This document shows positions 582 through 48,873 of a stretch of DNA of 48,873 nucleotides, piece after piece. A program made the position numbers and the translations under genes. The stretch comes from Anaerolineae bacterium (GTDB taxonomy: Bacteria; Chloroflexota; Anaerolineae; B4-G1; SLSP01), in NCBI GenBank assembly GCA_025454475.1, contig JALOOJ010000005.1:1-48873 (forward strand), in the 5' to 3' direction. Positions within the stretch are counted from its first letter, which is position 1; each line of letters begins with the position of its first letter. A model generated the notes under the pieces. That model saw only the letters and a list, made by a program, of their open reading frames with translations. It did no database searches and had not been told where the DNA came from.

Positions 582-711
582 GCTCTCATCTTCCAGAACC
601 CGCTTCCGCCGGGATTCTGTCGGAGTTGGCACCGTCGGAGTCACGCACACTACGCGTGAGGCCGGGTTGCCGAGGTTTCACAGGGCCGGTCCCTCCACCT
701 CTCTCGATAAG
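582..711 (-). promoter_or_regulatory. SAM-I (S-box) riboswitch
   Basis: On the minus strand the sequence reads TTATCGAGAGAGGTGGAGGG, then a GGCCC segment, TGAAACCTCGGCAACC and GGTGCCAACTCCGAC, ending in GATGAGAGC. These are the conserved blocks of the S-box aptamer: P1 closing strand, GA-rich internal loop, the CGGCAACC segment and the GGTGCCAA-TCC junction. P1 can form between CTTATCGAGAG (711-701) and the matching GATGAGAGC strand (590-582). Known behaviour of the class is SAM binding that promotes a terminator and shuts off methionine-pathway genes. The downstream terminator and met gene fit this. Confidence 0.95.
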
Positions 712-722
712 AACCGCGGCGA

Positions 723-3653: not shown

Positions 3654-6002
3654 ATGGCGCGCGCACGTAGTCTGATCCTATGCTCTCTGACTCTCCTGTC
3701 GTTGTACCTGCCGCAGGCCGTCCTCGCCGACGGCATGGTGTTACCTCTCGAGGCGAGCACGGCTTACCTGGTGGTGCTCTATCATCACGTCACCGTCGAC
3801 ATCGTGGACACCCGCGCGGTGACGCATGTTGAGCAGGCCTTCTACAACCCCCACCCGTTCGAGGTGACGGCGCAGTACCTCTTCCCGGTGCCGCCGGAGG
3901 CGGTGGTCACGGGCTTCGAGGCGGTCGTCGATGGCGAGGCTCAGACGGCAAGCCGACAGGACGCCGCCGCGACGAATGCAGCACTCACTACGCTGGTTGC
4001 ACAGCGGCGCGACCCCTCGTTGTTCCAGTACGCGGACTGGACCGCGCTCACGTTCGAGCTCGTGTTGCCTGCCCACGCCACACGGACGATGTCGCTCGAG
4101 TACGACGAGGTGCTGGCGCCTGCGAACGGCATGGCGCATTACCGCTACATCCTCGGCACCGAGCGCTATACCTCCGAGCTCCTGGATGAGGTCTCGATGA
4201 CGGTGCGTCTGACCTCGTCGCAAGGGCTCGGCACGATCTACTCGTCCTCGCATCCCGTCTCGATCGAACGTCAGGGGGCTGGGCGGGCGGAGGTCACGTG
4301 GGAGGCGGAGGATGTGCAGCCCACGGAGGACTTCCACCTGTTCTTCTCCCCGGCGGAGGGCGGTTTCGGCAGTGGCCTGCTCCTGGGCCGGCAGCCCGAC
4401 GCCGATGGCGAGACGCAGGGCGCCTTCCTGTTCCTCTTTGCACCGGAGAGGGCTCGACACGATAGCCCTGCGCTCCCCAAGGACATCGTATTTGTAGTCG
4501 ATCGGTCGGGCAGTATGGAGGGTGAGAAGATGGTCCAGGCTCAGGACGCTCTGCAGTACATCCTGGGGCAACTCGGGTCGGACGATCGCTTCTCGATCGT
4601 GGGCTTTGACGACCGGTTGGACGTGCTCGCTACGACGCTCCAGCCCGTAACGAGCGAGACGATCCGCGGGGCGCGCGACTTCGTGGATGACCTGTTCGCG
4701 CGGGACGCAACCGATATCGCCGCTGCGCTGGAGGAGGGCTTGGAGGTCCTGCGCAGCAGCGAGCCGCGGCGAGGGGCGATGCGGCTGCTCGTCTTCCTCA
4801 CCGACGGGCTGCCCACGGCGGGCCTGACCGATACCGGCGATATCCTTCGACGGATAGAGCGCGACAACCGCCGGGTGGAGGCGCGTCTGCACGTCTTTGG
4901 CGTCGGCTACGACGTCAACACGCACCTACTGGACCAGCTTGCGACGGCGGGCGGCGGCTCCATCACCTATGTACAGCCCGGTGAGAACCTCGAGCTCGTG
5001 CTCTCAGCCTTCTATGGGCGTATCGCGAGCCCGCTGCTCACGGATCTGGAGATCACGTTCGACGGTATGGTCGTTGAGGACGTGCATCCCCAGTCGCTGC
5101 CGGATATGTTCGAGGGATCCAGCCTCTTGCTGACTGGACGCTATCGCCCGAGAGGCGGCACGGCAACGGTGCATGTGACCGCCCGAGCCGGTGAGGAGAA
5201 GCAAATCTTCGAGTACGACTTCGACCTCGAGGCTGCGGAGACCTACGCCTTCGTGCCACGACTCTGGGCGACGCGTCAGATCGGTCAACTCCTGGATGAG
5301 ATCCGGGTCAAGGGTGAGAGAGACGTCCTCGTCGCCGAGGTGCGTGATCTGGGGCTCACCTACGGCCTCGTCACGCCCTATACCACCTTCGCCATCGCGG
5401 CGCAGGCCGGGGGCGCGGCTTCGGTGGAGAATATGGCGCTCTACGGAGATCAGAGCGCGCTCAACCAGTCGTCCGGTCAGGTCACGATCCAGGCGCGCGT
5501 GCAGAACCAGAGCTACCAGCAGGCCGCACAGGCCAACCTGGCGGGTGGGGCCAACGTGACGCAGAGCGGATACCACAACCTTGCGCAGGTCAACACACAG
5601 CACATCGACCTGACACTACTCCAGGGGCGCGAACACCCGGATGGTCCCGTCACGGAGGCGTGGATCGAGAGGAACGTCGCTGTGGACCGGCAAGTGGACT
5701 TCGGGTCCGAGGCGTACTTCGCGCTGGGTACCGACCCTGAGGCGCGGGCCTTCCTTCAGGCCGGTAACAACGTGCTTTTCAGGTATCGGGGCGAAGTCAT
5801 TCAGGTCATAGACCCTGAGACGCCTGAGGCGGCCTTCGATCTGCAGTCGCCCGAGTCATCCGGCAATATGCGGCCCGAGCAGTCGGTGCCAAGTTACACA
5901 CCGTTGACTGTCGGGCCGCAGTCGTCGAGTAGCCCGTGGACGCGGTTGCTTCAAGCGCTCGTCGGCGCGCTCAGGAGCATCGTCCAGAGCTTGGCGGAGT
6001 GA
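3654..6002 (+). CDS. Secreted VIT and VWA domain protein
   Basis: This is a 782-residue exported protein of the inter-alpha-trypsin-inhibitor heavy-chain type. I chose the ATG at 3654 because a signal peptide follows (basic start, hydrophobic core to about residue 25, AVLA cleavage) and AAAGGAAA precedes it; an in-frame GTG at 3600 would overlap the promoter. A VIT domain occupies about 27-160. A von Willebrand A domain (about 276-450) has a full MIDAS: DRSGS at 283-287 and FLTDGLP. The usual YGLVTPYTTF block follows near 575. About residues 600-660 are rich in Asn and Gln (for example QNQSYQQAAQANLAGG), a composition seen in adhesive or fibre-forming segments. The C-terminal part is unrecognised. 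Likely role is metal-dependent adhesion or protein binding outside the membrane. The Pho-box promoter suggests induction by the adjacent two-component system. Confidence 0.9.
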   Translation: MARARSLILCSLTLLSLYLPQAVLADGMVLPLEASTAYLVVLYHHVTVDIVDTRAVTHVEQAFYNPHPFEVTAQYLFPVPPEAVVTGFEAVVDGEAQTASRQDAAATNAALTTLVAQRRDPSLFQYADWTALTFELVLPAHATRTMSLEYDEVLAPANGMAHYRYILGTERYTSELLDEVSMTVRLTSSQGLGTIYSSSHPVSIERQGAGRAEVTWEAEDVQPTEDFHLFFSPAEGGFGSGLLLGRQPDADGETQGAFLFLFAPERARHDSPALPKDIVFVVDRSGSMEGEKMVQAQDALQYILGQLGSDDRFSIVGFDDRLDVLATTLQPVTSETIRGARDFVDDLFARDATDIAAALEEGLEVLRSSEPRRGAMRLLVFLTDGLPTAGLTDTGDILRRIERDNRRVEARLHVFGVGYDVNTHLLDQLATAGGGSITYVQPGENLELVLSAFYGRIASPLLTDLEITFDGMVVEDVHPQSLPDMFEGSSLLLTGRYRPRGGTATVHVTARAGEEKQIFEYDFDLEAAETYAFVPRLWATRQIGQLLDEIRVKGERDVLVAEVRDLGLTYGLVTPYTTFAIAAQAGGAASVENMALYGDQSALNQSSGQVTIQARVQNQSYQQAAQANLAGGANVTQSGYHNLAQVNTQHIDLTLLQGREHPDGPVTEAWIERNVAVDRQVDFGSEAYFALGTDPEARAFLQAGNNVLFRYRGEVIQVIDPETPEAAFDLQSPESSGNMRPEQSVPSYTPLTVGPQSSSSPWTRLLQALVGALRSIVQSLAE

Positions 6003-43649: not shown

Positions 43650-43674
43650 CCTATAGGCGCGCTCGCGCTATAGG
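43650..43674 (-). terminator. Hairpin at the GNAT gene stop
   Basis: CCTATAG-CGCG and CGCG-CTATAGG pair with one bulged base and a 2-base loop. The TAG stop of the GNAT gene lies in the stem. No T-tract. Confidence 0.45.
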
Positions 43675-44582
43675 ACTCTCGTCCAGCAGTTGGTGGTATA
43701 GAGGACCTCGAAGCCGAGCGCCTTGTAGAATCGCTGGTCCGAGCCGACGAAGGCGACGGTGGCGCCCTCTGCGCCGCAACGCCGGATGCCCTCCAGTACG
43801 GCGGCTCTGCCAAGCCCCATCCGCCGGTAGTCGGGATCGGTTGCCACGGGCTCGACGTAGGCGATGGCGTTGGTGCGATCGTGCCACATGCCGCAGAACG
43901 AGACGAAGTCGCCATTCGGCGCCTCGACCACGATCTTGAGGTCGTTACGGTAATTGGGGCTCGACGCCTGCTTCCGCCGCCCCTCGATACCCTCCTCAAC
44001 CGGTTCGCCCGCGTGGTTGAAACCGCGCCAGAGAACCCTGTGAACCTTCCACAGGTCGTTCTCATCGGCGAGGCTTTTCAGCCGGAAGCCCTCAGGGACC
44101 TTGATGGCCGGGAACAGATCCGGTATCATGAACCGAGACATCGGCCTTCCCCAATCCGGTTTCAGCTCATAGCCACGGGCTCGGACCAGGGTCTCGAGCT
44201 CCGTATCGAAGTCATTGACGTAGGCGTGCAGATATCGCTGCCCATCGGGCGTGACGCCATGGAGGTTGGCTTCTGCGTAGGCCAGCATCTCGGGCCTCAG
44301 GGCTTCGTGCCCTGGCTTGACCTGGAAGTAGGCTTCACCGAGCTTGCTTTCGTAGTTCACAACACCCACGATAGCGCCGGCCTCGCCGGTAGGCGACACC
44401 GCTTCCCAGATGCGAATCCTGTCGAGGGCGGTTACGTCGAGATTCGGGTGGGTGTGCATATACTCCCATTCGGGCTGAAGCCAATTGCCGTCTTGGTTGT
44501 TCGGTAGGTAGTGCGCAATCAGGAAGTTGCTGATTGCCGTAAAGTCATCGGGACCTGAGTACTGCCGTGTCTTGACTGTCAC
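43668..44582 (-). CDS. Tandem-domain GNAT acetyltransferase
   Basis: This is about 304 residues. The C-terminal GNAT domain (about 140-300) shows the acetyl-CoA-binding block EPVATDPDYRRMGLGRAAVLEG, and YKALGFEVLYTT near the end. The N-terminal half (about 1-135, VGVVNYESKLGEAYF) looks like a second, degenerate GNAT domain. The substrate is unknown. I prefer the GTG at 44582 because AAAGGATG lies just before it; an ATG at 44612 in frame lacks a ribosome-binding site. No operon partner is obvious: a family C repeat and hairpin follow, and the ABC exporter ends about 76 bp upstream on the same strand. Confidence 0.83.
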   Translation of the reverse strand: MTVKTRQYSGPDDFTAISNFLIAHYLPNNQDGNWLQPEWEYMHTHPNLDVTALDRIRIWEAVSPTGEAGAIVGVVNYESKLGEAYFQVKPGHEALRPEMLAYAEANLHGVTPDGQRYLHAYVNDFDTELETLVRARGYELKPDWGRPMSRFMIPDLFPAIKVPEGFRLKSLADENDLWKVHRVLWRGFNHAGEPVEEGIEGRRKQASSPNYRNDLKIVVEAPNGDFVSFCGMWHDRTNAIAYVEPVATDPDYRRMGLGRAAVLEGIRRCGAEGATVAFVGSDQRFYKALGFEVLYTTNCWTRVL

Positions 44583-44658
44583 TGCATCATCCTTTTCTGG
44601 GTGCGACACCATAGCTTGTGGACACTATGCGAATCACAGACCCGCTGGGTACGCTTGC

Positions 44659-46503
44659 TCAACCCCATATTCGGCGCATCTCCTCGTTTGTGGCCAGGAG
44701 CTCGTCAAGCGTGCCTGCCGCATCGATGCGACCATCCCGAAGCACCAGGATGGTATCGGCGCGGTGGAGCGCCGGGCGACGGTGTGATACGACCAGGCAC
44801 GTCGCGCCTCGATCACCGACTGTCTGAGAGAAGATGCCCTCCCACAGCGCCTGCTCCGTCTCCACATCCAGGGCGCTGGACAGATCGTCGAAGACGAGGA
44901 GCTCCGGCTCCCGCACGAACATGCGCGCAGCGGCTGTGCGTTGGCGCTGTCCGCCCGACAGCCGGACGCCTCTTGGCCCGATGACGGTGTCCAGGCCGTT
45001 GGGCATGTGAGCCATGTCGGGTTCGAGGGCCGCGAGCCGAATCGCCTGGACCAGGTCGACGCGATCCTCCGGGAGGCCCATCAAGATGTTGTCACGTAGC
45101 GATGCACTGAACAGGTGTGGGATCTGTGCGGTGTAGGCCGTGCGAGGCGGAGCAAAAAACGAGGCCGGGTCCTCGACCGGAATTTCGTTCCACAGGGCCG
45201 TTCCGCCTTGCGCGGGAAGCAGCCCCAGTAGGGCCCGCAACAGCGTGGTCTTTCCCGACCCTACGCGTCCGGTGATGACGACAAAGTCCCCCCGGTGTAC
45301 CGTGAAGCTTATGTCCTCAATCCCGTGCGGTGTTCCGTTGCCGTTGGTCATGTACTTATATGTCAGGCCGCGCACGCCAAGCGACGCCAGCCGATCCCGG
45401 GCGTCCCTGTCCGGCATAGTGATCTCGGGAAGTGCGCCGCGCAAGTAGATCGGGTGGGACGCCACAAGCAGCTCGCTGAGCTCGGCTTGTGGGACCGACT
45501 GGGTGTCGCCCTGCATGAGCGCCATCAGGCGTTTGAACGCGACGCCGACCTGCTTGAACCGGGTCGTGAAGCCGCCGGCCTCGACGATGAGCATCGTGAA
45601 ACTGTCCAGGCAGGTGGCAAAGAAGGCGAAGTCACCGATGGTGAAGGTGTCACTACGGATAGCATCCGCGATGAGCATCAGGATGAAACCGGTGCTGAGT
45701 GCGCCGGCTTCTTCGCACATCGAGTAGAGCACCTGGTTGAGCGACCGGTCGCGCACCATCGCATCCTGCCTGCCCTTGGCGAGCCGGTCGACATGCCCTG
45801 CGACGTGGACGTCGGCGCCAGCGACTTTGACTGCCTGCACGGCACCCAGGATCTCGTTCAGGGCTCCACTGAAGCGGGCTGTCGCCGCACGACTGATCTT
45901 CCGGTAGCGCTCGGCATGGGTCGCCATCACGCGGGAGATCAGGATCACGGCGGCAAGCGGGATCAGGGACAGGAGCGCGATCCTGGCATCGATGGCGATC
46001 ATCAGCCCCAGGGTCACGAGCGTATAAGCCATGATCGCGATTTGGTCTGCCAGCCACCCGAGTGTCATCTCTATCTCACCGACGTCGTCACGGATGGTGT
46101 TTAGCGCCTCGCCGGGTGAGTCCGGGATCGCCTTGGCACCGGGCTGGTTCAGGATGCGGGCCAACAGGTTTCGCCGCAGGAGCGATCCTGCGGTGAACTT
46201 GCTTCGCGCGCAGACGACAGCGCCGGTGCCGATGGTGATGATGTGAGCGATGCGTGTGACCAGCACCAGGATGACAATACCCGTGACTCCGAAGCGGAAG
46301 GGTCTGTCGCCGGTGAGTGTGTCAAAGAAGAGCTTGGTCATGATGCGAGGCGCCAGCTCGCCGATATGGATCACCACCCATACGGCGAGGAAGGCGACCG
46401 ACAGCCAGGGCTTGTACGCGATCAGGCGCCAGATCATCTGGCCTGTGCGCAATGCGGGTCTTGCCGCGGGGATACGTGAGGCGCTCTGTGGGATAGCAGT
46501 CAT
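44659..46503 (-). CDS. ABC exporter half, probably the degenerate-site subunit
   Basis: This 614-residue protein has six membrane segments (about 30-330) and an ATPase domain (about 380-610). Walker A is [11 protein letters not shown], the signature [12 protein letters not shown] and Walker [13 protein letters not shown]. The residue after the Walker B aspartate is Asp where the catalytic Glu stands in active sites, so its own site is probably the degenerate one of a heterodimer. The partner gene ends 12 bp upstream and has a proper Glu. Heterodimers of this kind (BmrCD, TM287/288 type) export drugs, lipids or peptides. The substrate cannot be inferred. The two genes are co-transcribed from the promoter at 48573-48601. 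Confidence 0.92.
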
Positions 46504-46515
46504 CGGAAGTCTTCC

Positions 46516-48309
46516 TTATGCGAGCACATCCTGCATGCCGGTCTGCAGGAGATGGTGAAAGTGTGACCCGGGGTCGGCAGCCAGTCGTGCACGGTCGCCG
46601 AACTCAATGCTACGACCGTCCTCCAAGATCAGGATCTTATCGGCGCGCTGAACCGTGGGCAGGCGGTGAGCGATGATGATACCCGTCCTGTCCGCCAGCA
46701 ACAGATCCACGGCGCGCTCGATGAGCTGTTCTGTCGCCGGGTCCAGCCGCGACGACGCCTCATCGAGGATCACCACATCGGGGTTAGCCAGGAAGGCCCG
46801 CGCGAAAGCCAGGAGTTGCGCCTGTCCTGCCGAGAGCCCGCCGCCATCGGAGGCGAGTTCGGTGTCCAGGCCACCTGGAAGCGCGCGCAGCCACTCTCCG
46901 AGGCCTAACTGCAGCAAGGTGCGCTCGATCGCGGCATCGGAGACGGCAGGGTTGAAGAGCGCCAGGTTGTCGCGCACGCTGGCCTGGAAGAGCTGCACCT
47001 CCTGCGTCACCAGGGTGACCCGATCGCGGAGATCCTGAACCGTTGTGTCAGTCAGGGCGCGGTCACCCAGGCGGATCTGGCCCTCGGTGGGATCGTAGAG
47101 GCGTAGTAGGAGCCTGGCGAGCGTGGTCTTGCCGCTGCCGGTGCGCCCGAGAAGCCCCAACACGCGGCCCGGAGCTACATCGAAGGTGAGTGCATGCAGA
47201 ACGCGATCATTGCCATTTGGTGCAGCGCCGTCCGCTGCTGCCAGCGGTGCCTCGACGCGATCGTCATAGGCAAAAGAGACATCGTGGAAGGCGACCGAGA
47301 GTGCGCCAGCGGGCAGCGGACCGCCCGTGCCATCGACCAGCCGTGACCGCAGATCAAAGAGCTGCTGGATGCGGCCGATCCCGGCCTCGGCATGCTGCAG
47401 GTCATTGACCTGCCAGCGGATGTCGGCGATTTGCCCGAAGAGCAACCCCATATAGCTGCCGATCATATAGGCCTCGCCGATGGTGAGCTCCCCGCGGAAG
47501 AAGTAGTAGCCCGAAAGCGCATAGGCCAGCATCTCTCCTGCGGCGACGAGGGCGGCGTTGGTCATCCAGCCGGCATAGCCGGCCAGGCTGGCATTGCGGT
47601 TGATCGGCAGCCATTGTTGAAAGTACTTGTACAGGGAGCGCATGACATAACCCTGGGCGCCGTTAGCGCGGATGTCCTCTGTCCCTGAGAACTGCTCCTC
47701 CAGGAACCCGTAGAACTGGGCCTGGATCTCGTGGAGCCGGGTCCAGAACGGCGTGGCGAGATCGGCGAGCCGGACCAGGACGAGCATCCCGATTACGGCG
47801 TAGAGCGTGAAGGGTACGCCGTAGCGCCACCCCTGCCGGAAGAAGAGGATCAGGATGCCGCCCGCCAGGATGCCGTTTCCGATGATGCTGATGACGAAGC
47901 TTGAGAAGAAGTTCGACAGCGCGTCGACATCGGTGTCGATGCGCTCGGTCAACTCGCCGGGCCGGTGGGCCTTGTGGAACACCATGTCGAGGCCGAGGCA
48001 GTGGCGCAGCAGATCGAGCCGCAGCGCGTTCGTGGCGGTCCACGCTACCCGCTCGCCAACAGTGACGTTGACAATGGTCAGAATCTGGGTCAGGGCAGCG
48101 ATGGCAAGAAAGAACGCCCCATAGCGCAGCAGCGAGGCCGTCGGCGCACCCGCCATGGCCTGATCCAAGAACCCACGCACGATCTGCGGGTTGATTAGCC
48201 GCGACGCGATCTTGAGCGCTAGCAGCAGTGCGAGGACGAGCATCTGTCGCCACAACGGGCGCAGGTACGTGTGCAGCAGCTTCCAGTAGCGGTGTAGCGG
48301 TATCTTCAT
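46516..48309 (-). CDS. ABC exporter half, catalytic-site subunit
   Basis: This 597-residue partner of the next gene has membrane segments (about 20-320) then an ATPase domain with Walker A GRTGSGKTTLARLLL, signature LSAGQAQLLAFA, Walker B VVILDEASSRLD with catalytic Glu, and H-loop IIIAHRLPTV. The signature has Ala for the second Gly, common in asymmetric exporters. A leader with a 9-codon ORF and an intrinsic terminator 23 bp before its ATG suggests that expression is controlled by premature termination. The arrangement recalls bmrB-bmrCD of Bacillus, where a translated leader ORF governs read-through to a heterodimeric drug exporter. Confidence 0.92.
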   Translation of the reverse strand: MKIPLHRYWKLLHTYLRPLWRQMLVLALLLALKIASRLINPQIVRGFLDQAMAGAPTASLLRYGAFFLAIAALTQILTIVNVTVGERVAWTATNALRLDLLRHCLGLDMVFHKAHRPGELTERIDTDVDALSNFFSSFVISIIGNGILAGGILILFFRQGWRYGVPFTLYAVIGMLVLVRLADLATPFWTRLHEIQAQFYGFLEEQFSGTEDIRANGAQGYVMRSLYKYFQQWLPINRNASLAGYAGWMTNAALVAAGEMLAYALSGYYFFRGELTIGEAYMIGSYMGLLFGQIADIRWQVNDLQHAEAGIGRIQQLFDLRSRLVDGTGGPLPAGALSVAFHDVSFAYDDRVEAPLAAADGAAPNGNDRVLHALTFDVAPGRVLGLLGRTGSGKTTLARLLLRLYDPTEGQIRLGDRALTDTTVQDLRDRVTLVTQEVQLFQASVRDNLALFNPAVSDAAIERTLLQLGLGEWLRALPGGLDTELASDGGGLSAGQAQLLAFARAFLANPDVVILDEASSRLDPATEQLIERAVDLLLADRTGIIIAHRLPTVQRADKILILEDGRSIEFGDRARLAADPGSHFHHLLQTGMQDVLA

Positions 48310-48331: not shown

Positions 48332-48369
48332 AAAACAAAAGGCCGCGGACGTCACAGACGTCCACGGCC
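48332..48369 (-). terminator. Leader terminator before the ABC exporter
   Basis: On the minus strand a 13-bp stem (GGCCGTGGACGTC with GACGTCCGCGGCC, one G-T mismatch, 3-base loop) is followed by TTTTGTTTT. It stands 23 bp before the exporter ATG, so read-through is needed for expression. Confidence 0.85.
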
Positions 48370-48514
48370 CAGAGATCAATACGCACGAAGAGACGCACTG
48401 CGACAGCGCACTCCCGCAACACCGACGGCGCCGGACCCGATTCAGGGGCCTGGCGAACCACGACCATGGGCAGCACCTGCGTGGGCTATCACGCAGATTC
48501 CCAAGGATCTTGGG

Positions 48515-48544
48515 TTAGTGTCGGGAGTTGCTGTCGGTCACCAT
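48515..48544 (-). CDS. Nine-codon leader ORF of the ABC exporter
   Basis: ATG to TAA encodes MVTDSNSRH. GGAGG lies 11 bases upstream (48560-48556), and the transcription start is predicted near 48566, so this is the first ORF of the transcript. A CCCAAG/CTTGGG hairpin (48514-48500) starts right after the stop codon, a GC-rich structured stretch follows, and the leader terminator ends the region. Placement and size fit a regulatory leader peptide. There is no run of a single amino acid codon, so a drug- or stress-responsive ribosome stall is more likely than amino-acid attenuation. Confidence 0.5.
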   Translation of the reverse strand: MVTDSNSRH

Positions 48545-48572
48545 CGGATCAGATACCTCCAGAACTATGCAC

Positions 48573-48601
48573 AGTATAAAGGTGAGGCGCGGAAATGTCA
48601 A
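48573..48601 (-). promoter_or_regulatory. Sigma-70-type promoter of the ABC exporter operon
   Basis: Minus strand TTGACA (48601-48596), 17 bp, then TATACT (48578-48573). Near-consensus promoter. It leaves a leader of about 257 bases before the exporter ATG. Confidence 0.85.
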
Positions 48602-48642: not shown

Positions 48643-48873
48643 TCAGGAAAGAATGTGTTGCAGAAACGCGCGAAGCTCGGGTGTCTGAGGGTCTGTGAAG
48701 AGTTGTTCGGCCGGCCCGTGTTCCACCAGCTTGCCGCCATCGATATACAGCACATGGTCGGCGGCGATCCGGGCGAATGCCATCTCATGGGTCACCAGGA
48801 TCAGGTCGCGACGCTGCTGCTTGAGCGCCAGGATCATATCCAGCACTTCGTGCGTGAGCTGGGGGTCGAGGGC
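48643..48873 (-). CDS. Amino-acid-type ABC transporter ATP-binding protein, 3' part
   Basis: These are the C-terminal 76 residues of an ABC ATPase; the start lies beyond the window. The visible part runs from ALDPQLTHEVLDM (just after Walker B) through the H-loop LVTHEMAFARIAADHVLYID to GGKLVEHGPAEQLFTDPQ and ends PELRAFLQHIL. This spelling is typical of GlnQ/HisP-like polar amino-acid importers. The exporter promoter follows about 40 bp after its stop, so the exporter is separately transcribed. Confidence 0.88.
   Translation of the reverse strand, partial: ALDPQLTHEVLDMILALKQQRRDLILVTHEMAFARIAADHVLYIDGGKLVEHGPAEQLFTDPQTPELRAFLQHILS

Follow-up and report, generated by a model that had tools for sequence, protein, structure and literature searches.

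Leader region of the exporter operon

Near one end of the window, i.e., the 48,873-nt stretch of Anaerolineae bacterium DNA (contig JALOOJ010000005.1) analysed here, a promoter, a nine-codon open reading frame (ORF) and an intrinsic terminator precede a pair of ABC transporter genes, which raises the question of whether transcription of these genes depends on a ribosome reading the short ORF. An earlier note on this DNA proposed such ribosome-dependent attenuation, and all the parts that it listed are present at this place on the minus strand. Pfam and PDB sequence matches identify the downstream genes as ABC half-exporters. The first (46516..48309, minus strand; 597 aa; ABC_membrane and ABC_tran) encodes a protein with a canonical Walker B glutamate and an LSAGQ signature; the second (44659..46503, minus strand; 614 aa) begins 12 nt past the first, and in its product FDDL replaces the Walker B glutamate. 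The combination of FDDL in the 614-aa half and LSAGQ in the 597-aa half indicates one degenerate ATP site, as in heterodimeric exporters, so the earlier description of the operon as encoding a heterodimeric exporter holds. A gene encoding a 314-aa GNAT-family protein (43668..44612, minus strand; Pfam Acetyltransf_1, 3e-9) lies 46 bp downstream of the second half-exporter and is a possible third gene of the operon. Directly upstream of the promoter, the window contains the 3′ end of a gene for an ABC importer ATPase of the amino-acid type (TcyN/HisP-like; 48643-48873, minus strand), truncated where the contig ends; a SAM riboswitch (RF00162, 83.5 bits) was found towards the opposite end, at 583-713, minus strand.

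The promoter (48573..48601) consists of a −35 TTGACA (48601-48596) and a −10 TATACT (48578-48573) separated by a 17-bp spacer. The scan gave 11 of 12 matches to the consensus; taken alone, this is modest evidence, since 0.4 such sites are expected by chance per shuffled 1.5-kb region. The Shine–Dalgarno (SD) sequence GGAGG (48560-48556) is followed, after a long gap of 11 nt, by the leader ORF MVTDSNSRH* (48544-48515; ATG GTG ACC GAC AGC AAC TCC CGA CAC TAA), which confirms the predicted nine-codon ORF with its SD sequence. Terminator T1 (48332..48370), found by scanning and supported by covariation, is a 14-bp hairpin (48370-48340; GGGCCGTGGACGTC-TGT-GACGTCCGCGGCCT) with a U-tract reaching about 48332, thus ending, as noted earlier, about 23 bp from the exporter ATG at 48309. 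It starts (48370) 145 nt after the leader stop (48515), and the exporter ribosome-binding site (RBS) sits beyond its U-tract.

The hairpins that the earlier note placed after the leader stop do exist, but they are mostly enclosed in a larger helix between the leader ORF and 48423-48399; neither this helix nor the element at 48405-48390 appeared in that note. Four strands can be distinguished. Strand 1 (48518..48536, minus strand; CGACAGC and CTCCCGACAC) lies within the leader ORF and pairs with strand 2 (48390..48423, minus strand; GGTGTTGCGGGAG...GCTGTCGCAGTGCGTCTC) in the protector helix P1, the duplex with the 48423-48390 region having an energy of −32.2 kcal/mol. Strand 2, supported by near-invariance and a permutation test of pairings, contains the element TGTCGCAGTGCGTCTC, also given as UGUCGCAGUGCGUCUC, which is nearly invariant across the family described below. 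Strand 3 comprises the 5′ arm and loop of T1, and strand 4 its 3′ arm. The spacer enclosed by P1 (48424..48514, minus strand) folds into two to three hairpins and is specific to the window-type variant.

Copies of the leader and relatives of the exporter

A search of the same genome with the leader DNA revealed a second copy of the promoter-to-terminator stretch (L003), 77% identical, which precedes a gene unrelated to the exporter, that of a SpoU-family rRNA methyltransferase. The best solved relatives of this protein include 5kzk, an RNA methyltransferase of the TrmH family, and the rRNA methyltransferase 1x7o, which we take to be the avilamycin resistance enzyme AviRb. In a congener, the layout recurs with 76% identity before the orthologous exporter (L005). 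Recurrence at these levels of identity shows that the window layout is more than chance. The −35 box and the SD-region sequence GAGGTAT are kept in both copies, and the leader ORF has the same length in each, although the peptides (MVTDSNSRH in the window, MLSDGFSRA in L003 and MSNDSTSRH in L005) have little protein sequence in common. Common to the three loci are the terminator, the element GCTGTCGCAGTGCGTCTC, which hardly varies, and the long helix between the leader ORF and a region some 100 nt further downstream; P1 was also found in the folds of both copies, and for the SpoU paralogue it was taken from the fold, the duplex energy being disregarded. In total, the genome of the window contains three copies of the attenuator, two of the window type (C197 and C34) and one of the canonical type (C321), the latter before a GNAT gene.

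Relatives of the window exporter are often without this attenuator, and none was found upstream of the orthologue in another congener (L092). The exporter relative of a Ktedonobacterales genome (L011, 52% identical) is preceded by an unrelated 16-codon leader, MLRYINTPNDSKITLV (3715-3780), which is flanked by GGCACAC/GTGTGCC and is not matched by the covariance model described below; this leader may represent another kind of attenuator for the same gene. Other short leader ORFs with strong terminators, e.g., MSTSRAVFMWGLLARGESLPARCSV, MIYRPILPNQKLNLFRSAPINRL and MFCFIRTNQHPGDWNLR, were seen upstream of exporter homologues at L104, L107 and L110, loci that could not be clearly assigned to the family. 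Near one attenuated exporter (L165, 747-1063, minus strand), a T-box leader scored 90.1 bits against a gathering threshold of 93.

A family of probable attenuators in one class of Chloroflexota

DNA similarity searches found three close copies and weak matches, two of the latter being family members (L007 and L008), in which the element lies 50–70 nt before a terminator, ahead of a double GNAT or a DrrA-like ABC ATPase. A pattern search with the element yielded 13 exact matches among 149 relatives, 12 of them followed by a terminator (that of L127 judged by eye; the exception is L151). In distant genomes, one-mismatch matches were about as frequent as matches to reversed-pattern controls, so only loci supported by a terminator or by a covariance model were counted. 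The model, built on the core from the element to T1, matched 86 of 396 genomes of the class at E ≤ 0.001, and 41 of 233 among the better genomes. The family almost never occurs outside this class: of 400 genomes drawn from the phylum, 12 were matched at E ≤ 1e-4, only two of them from other classes, and among 49 genomes sampled by way of named loci from many phyla matches were confined to the congener and two ‘Anaerolineales’ genomes, which makes Anaerolineae the probable identity of the class.

This family of about 100 attenuators is uncatalogued and absent from Rfam. An Rfam search over the window leader gave no match at the gathering score and no explanation at E ≤ 1; over the attenuators of 13 loci, nothing reached the gathering score, and two sub-threshold suhB matches were obtained. 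A literature search among freely accessible papers found none on such attenuators in Chloroflexi or Anaerolineae. Premature terminators were surveyed in 2010, with many ABC-transporter attenuators among them; Chloroflexi are mentioned neither in that survey nor in one of RNA motifs from 2021.

The anatomy of the family was derived from 98 loci, L104 and L098 being left out for their weak covariance-model scores. The canonical order is TTGACA, SD sequence, leader ORF, element, T1, often a second terminator (T2), and the gene, with T1 of the form GGCCGYGG...CCRCGGCC plus a U-tract; virtually every member has a strong terminator. The leader ORF usually starts 45–75 nt before the element and ends just past or inside it. 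The window represents a variant with a nine-codon ORF, extra hairpins and one terminator. A plausible leader ORF, with an SD match of at least 4 nt or an ATG right after the TATA box, was found in 94 of the 98 loci. At three loci before ABC-F genes (L253, L255 and L256), the leader ATG lies only a few bases past the TATA box, and these leaders are probably translated from leaderless mRNA.

Most leader peptides end in LPCRSAPxxR*. In the in-frame leaders that keep these residues, Ser is encoded by AGT in 58 of 58 cases and Ala by GCG in 60 of 60, and other leaders have the element in another frame or stop at a TAG inside it; the invariant codons and the differing frames argue that the constraint acts on the RNA and not on the peptide. 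A supposed difference in frame between L007 and L008 was rejected, as L007 starts with GTG, the true frame differences being found at other loci. The R/K-x-R/K stalling motif occurs in 29 of 94 leaders, about twice the 14.4 ± 3.0 expected, kinship not being corrected for in this comparison; for some members, this excess is a hint of macrolides. The motif is missing from the window leader.

The 93 proteins encoded downstream include 48 with a match to ABC_tran (the membrane domain of exporters is matched by 17 proteins and the ABC-F extension by 8), 23 with a match to Acetyltransf_1, 6 to HAD and 3 to MFS_1, as well as two ABC-2 permeases and one SpoU methylase. DrrA-like ATPases are also present among the ABC genes, and further attenuator loci were seen before ABC-F-like genes and an exporter. 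By family resemblance, these genes can be described as putatively of resistance type. Genes of HAD-family phosphatase-like proteins (MIKAVIFDxGGVLxRT) follow the attenuator repeatedly (L193, L194, L221, L230, L234, L249 and L126).

Alternative pairings of the element

The element and the bases following it can pair with the 5′ arm and loop of T1, forming an antiterminator helix (AT) that excludes T1 through the common use of the T1 5′ arm. Over 94 loci, the mean AT energy is −22.8 kcal/mol (z from −2.3 to −2.4 against shuffles). The T1 loop lengths vary too much for a column-based search, and AT was tested by duplex permutation: among 62 non-redundant loci, elements paired with their own partners better than with permuted ones (z −9.8, 0 of 2000 permutations), and P1, formed by the element and the start region of the leader, behaved likewise (z −9.0, 0 of 2000; 62 non-redundant loci). 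Kinship among the loci somewhat inflates this significance, but two control pairings, put through the same test at the same loci, gave no own-partner excess, which argues against relatedness as the cause of the AT and P1 signals. In an alignment of 22 sequences, the AT helix was paired in 90.1% of cells, compared to 23–48% when slid, and T1 in 95.9%. The covariation in relatives named earlier as a check was thus found both for T1 and for the helix between the element and T1; in the window lineage, the element change C19 to U, the T1 5′ arm change G75 to A and the T1 3′ arm change C88 to U (alignment columns) are coordinated in such a way that both AT and T1 are kept.

In silico, the nascent RNA of the window, folded up to the T1 loop, forms P1, and with the leader ORF masked it forms AT. 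When the leader was masked at 63 loci, the expected number of AT pairs rose from 10.7 to about 14 and that of P1 pairs fell from 6.1 to 1–2, a gain of more than two AT pairs being seen in only 23–26 of the 63 loci, with P1 weak at equilibrium in many members; covering the element abolished AT.

Proposed mechanism and alternative explanations

We consider it probable (about 0.7) that the leader attenuates transcription in cis according to how a ribosome advances along the short ORF. The parts, their conservation and their covarying pairings are supported by comparison of the sequences, from which we infer the order of events, the ribosome as the sensor, antibiotics as the signal and drug export as the output. 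Strand 1 would lie in the start region of the leader or in its ORF, the element would serve as strand 2, and the arms of T1 as strands 3 and 4. In canonical members, an unhindered ribosome would run over the element to the stop codon just downstream, blocking the 2:3 pairing and letting T1 (3:4) terminate transcription; with no ribosome, the 1:2 pairing would also conceal the element. Stalling of a ribosome near the beginning of the leader, e.g., by a translation inhibitor, would mask strand 1 or block the 1:2 pairing, and the freed element could then pair with the T1 5′ arm, so that RNA polymerase would continue into the gene of resistance type. In the window variant, 109 nt separate the end of the ORF from the element, and therefore only the strong 1:2 helix would keep the element off T1; a free ribosome would let P1 reform and T1 terminate. 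Against this account speak the weakness of P1 in many members, the long SD-to-ATG gap and the missing stalling motif of the window leader, and the L092 orthologue with no such attenuator. By comparison of sequences, the earlier proposal is well supported as regards a translated leader, an antiterminator and a terminator before a heterodimeric exporter, but its exporter-centred view was too narrow, since the window is one variant member of a class-wide family standing before several kinds of genes.

Might the leader codons, and not a drug, be what is sensed? An attenuator answering amino-acid shortage or general translation status through particular leader codons, e.g., those for Cys or Arg in LPCRSAP, would fit the commonness of this peptide, and the example of whiB7 indicates that starvation, too, may act on leaders of this sort (PMC12121999). 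The conserved codons, however, lie in the element, and a ribosome stalled there would sit on strand 2, which would favour termination; moreover, the wobble positions and frame changes reflect a constraint on RNA, no amino acid forms a run in the window leader, and the targets are of resistance type and not biosynthetic, all of which makes this explanation unlikely. Still less probable is a protein or small ligand that binds the element or leader in place of the ribosome and switches P1 and AT: the strong conservation of the element is what a binding site would show, but the need to pair with two partners explains it, leader ORFs accompany nearly all the loci, and no Rfam aptamer was found.

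Translation attenuation of the ermC type, acting on the exporter RBS with the terminator secondary, has in its favour that P1 hides a ribosome-binding sequence in canonical members. The hidden site, however, is the RBS of the leader itself and not that of the resistance gene, and the position of the exporter RBS past T1 and the near-universal terminator make this mechanism very improbable. Any single part of the arrangement could have arisen by chance, but the same layout with covarying alternative pairings in about 100 loci before different genes, together with the permutation tests, leaves hardly any room for a fortuitous assembly of a promoter, a small ORF and an ordinary terminator.

A wider reading of the ribosome-dependent attenuator is more tentative, and we hold it at somewhat below even odds: within this Chloroflexota class, it would be a transplantable unit forming a drug-responsive cis-regulon (ABC exporters, ABC-F proteins, acetyltransferases and rRNA methylation), with a domino of T1 and T2 in addition. 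In members with two terminators, antitermination at T1 would free its 3′ arm, which could capture the 5′ arm of T2 and disable it. At 47 non-redundant loci, the T1 3′ arm pairs with the T2 5′ arm of its own locus at −19.9 kcal/mol, against −16.1 kcal/mol for permuted partners, an affinity that may instead come from common descent of T1 and T2.

Comparison with known systems

The best reading is that the style of the mechanism is that of bmrB and vmlR, and that the family is a separate one, class-wide and modular. In Bacillus subtilis, bmrCD attenuation follows a similar logic of leader stalling and antitermination, with the terminator inside the bmrB coding region, and an anti-anti-terminator role of bmrB is unproven (PMC4191407). 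The comparison with bmrB-bmrCD drawn in the earlier note is apt as a functional likeness and for the heterodimeric exporter; the relation is not a familial one, as the window terminator lies well outside the leader and the window element, unlike bmrB, is common to about 100 loci before other kinds of genes. In vmlR of B. subtilis, a stalled ribosome on a very short upstream ORF (uORF) is described as preventing an anti-antiterminator, so that an antiterminator beats the intrinsic terminator; the target is an ABC-F resistance factor, a kind of gene also found in the Chloroflexota family, whereas the uORF has three codons, its sequence is unrelated, and no element common to many kinds of genes appears in that description (PMC9226507).

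The suggestion that such a system would be new outside Bacillota was too strong, since the whiB7 uORF of Actinobacteria and toiL-topAI of E. coli already sense ribosome-targeting antibiotics; toiL, however, acts through the topAI RBS and Rho, whereas the Chloroflexota family uses an intrinsic terminator, and whiB7 is a single regulator gene acting in trans, whereas here the attenuator stands on each target gene (PMC12121999). The logic of a 1:2 protector, a 2:3 antiterminator and a 3:4 terminator is that of attenuators of the trp/his type, from which the family differs in having no regulatory codon run, in using the leader start region or ORF as strand 1, and in its resistance-type targets.

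If the switch works as proposed, a little-studied phylum would possess a common sensor of translation inhibitors. One searchable RNA motif would then mark the genes that these bacteria treat as antibiotic defences, including unassigned GNAT and HAD-family genes; attenuators would be able to move between genes as modules, and the switch would offer a portable reporter for ribosome stalling.
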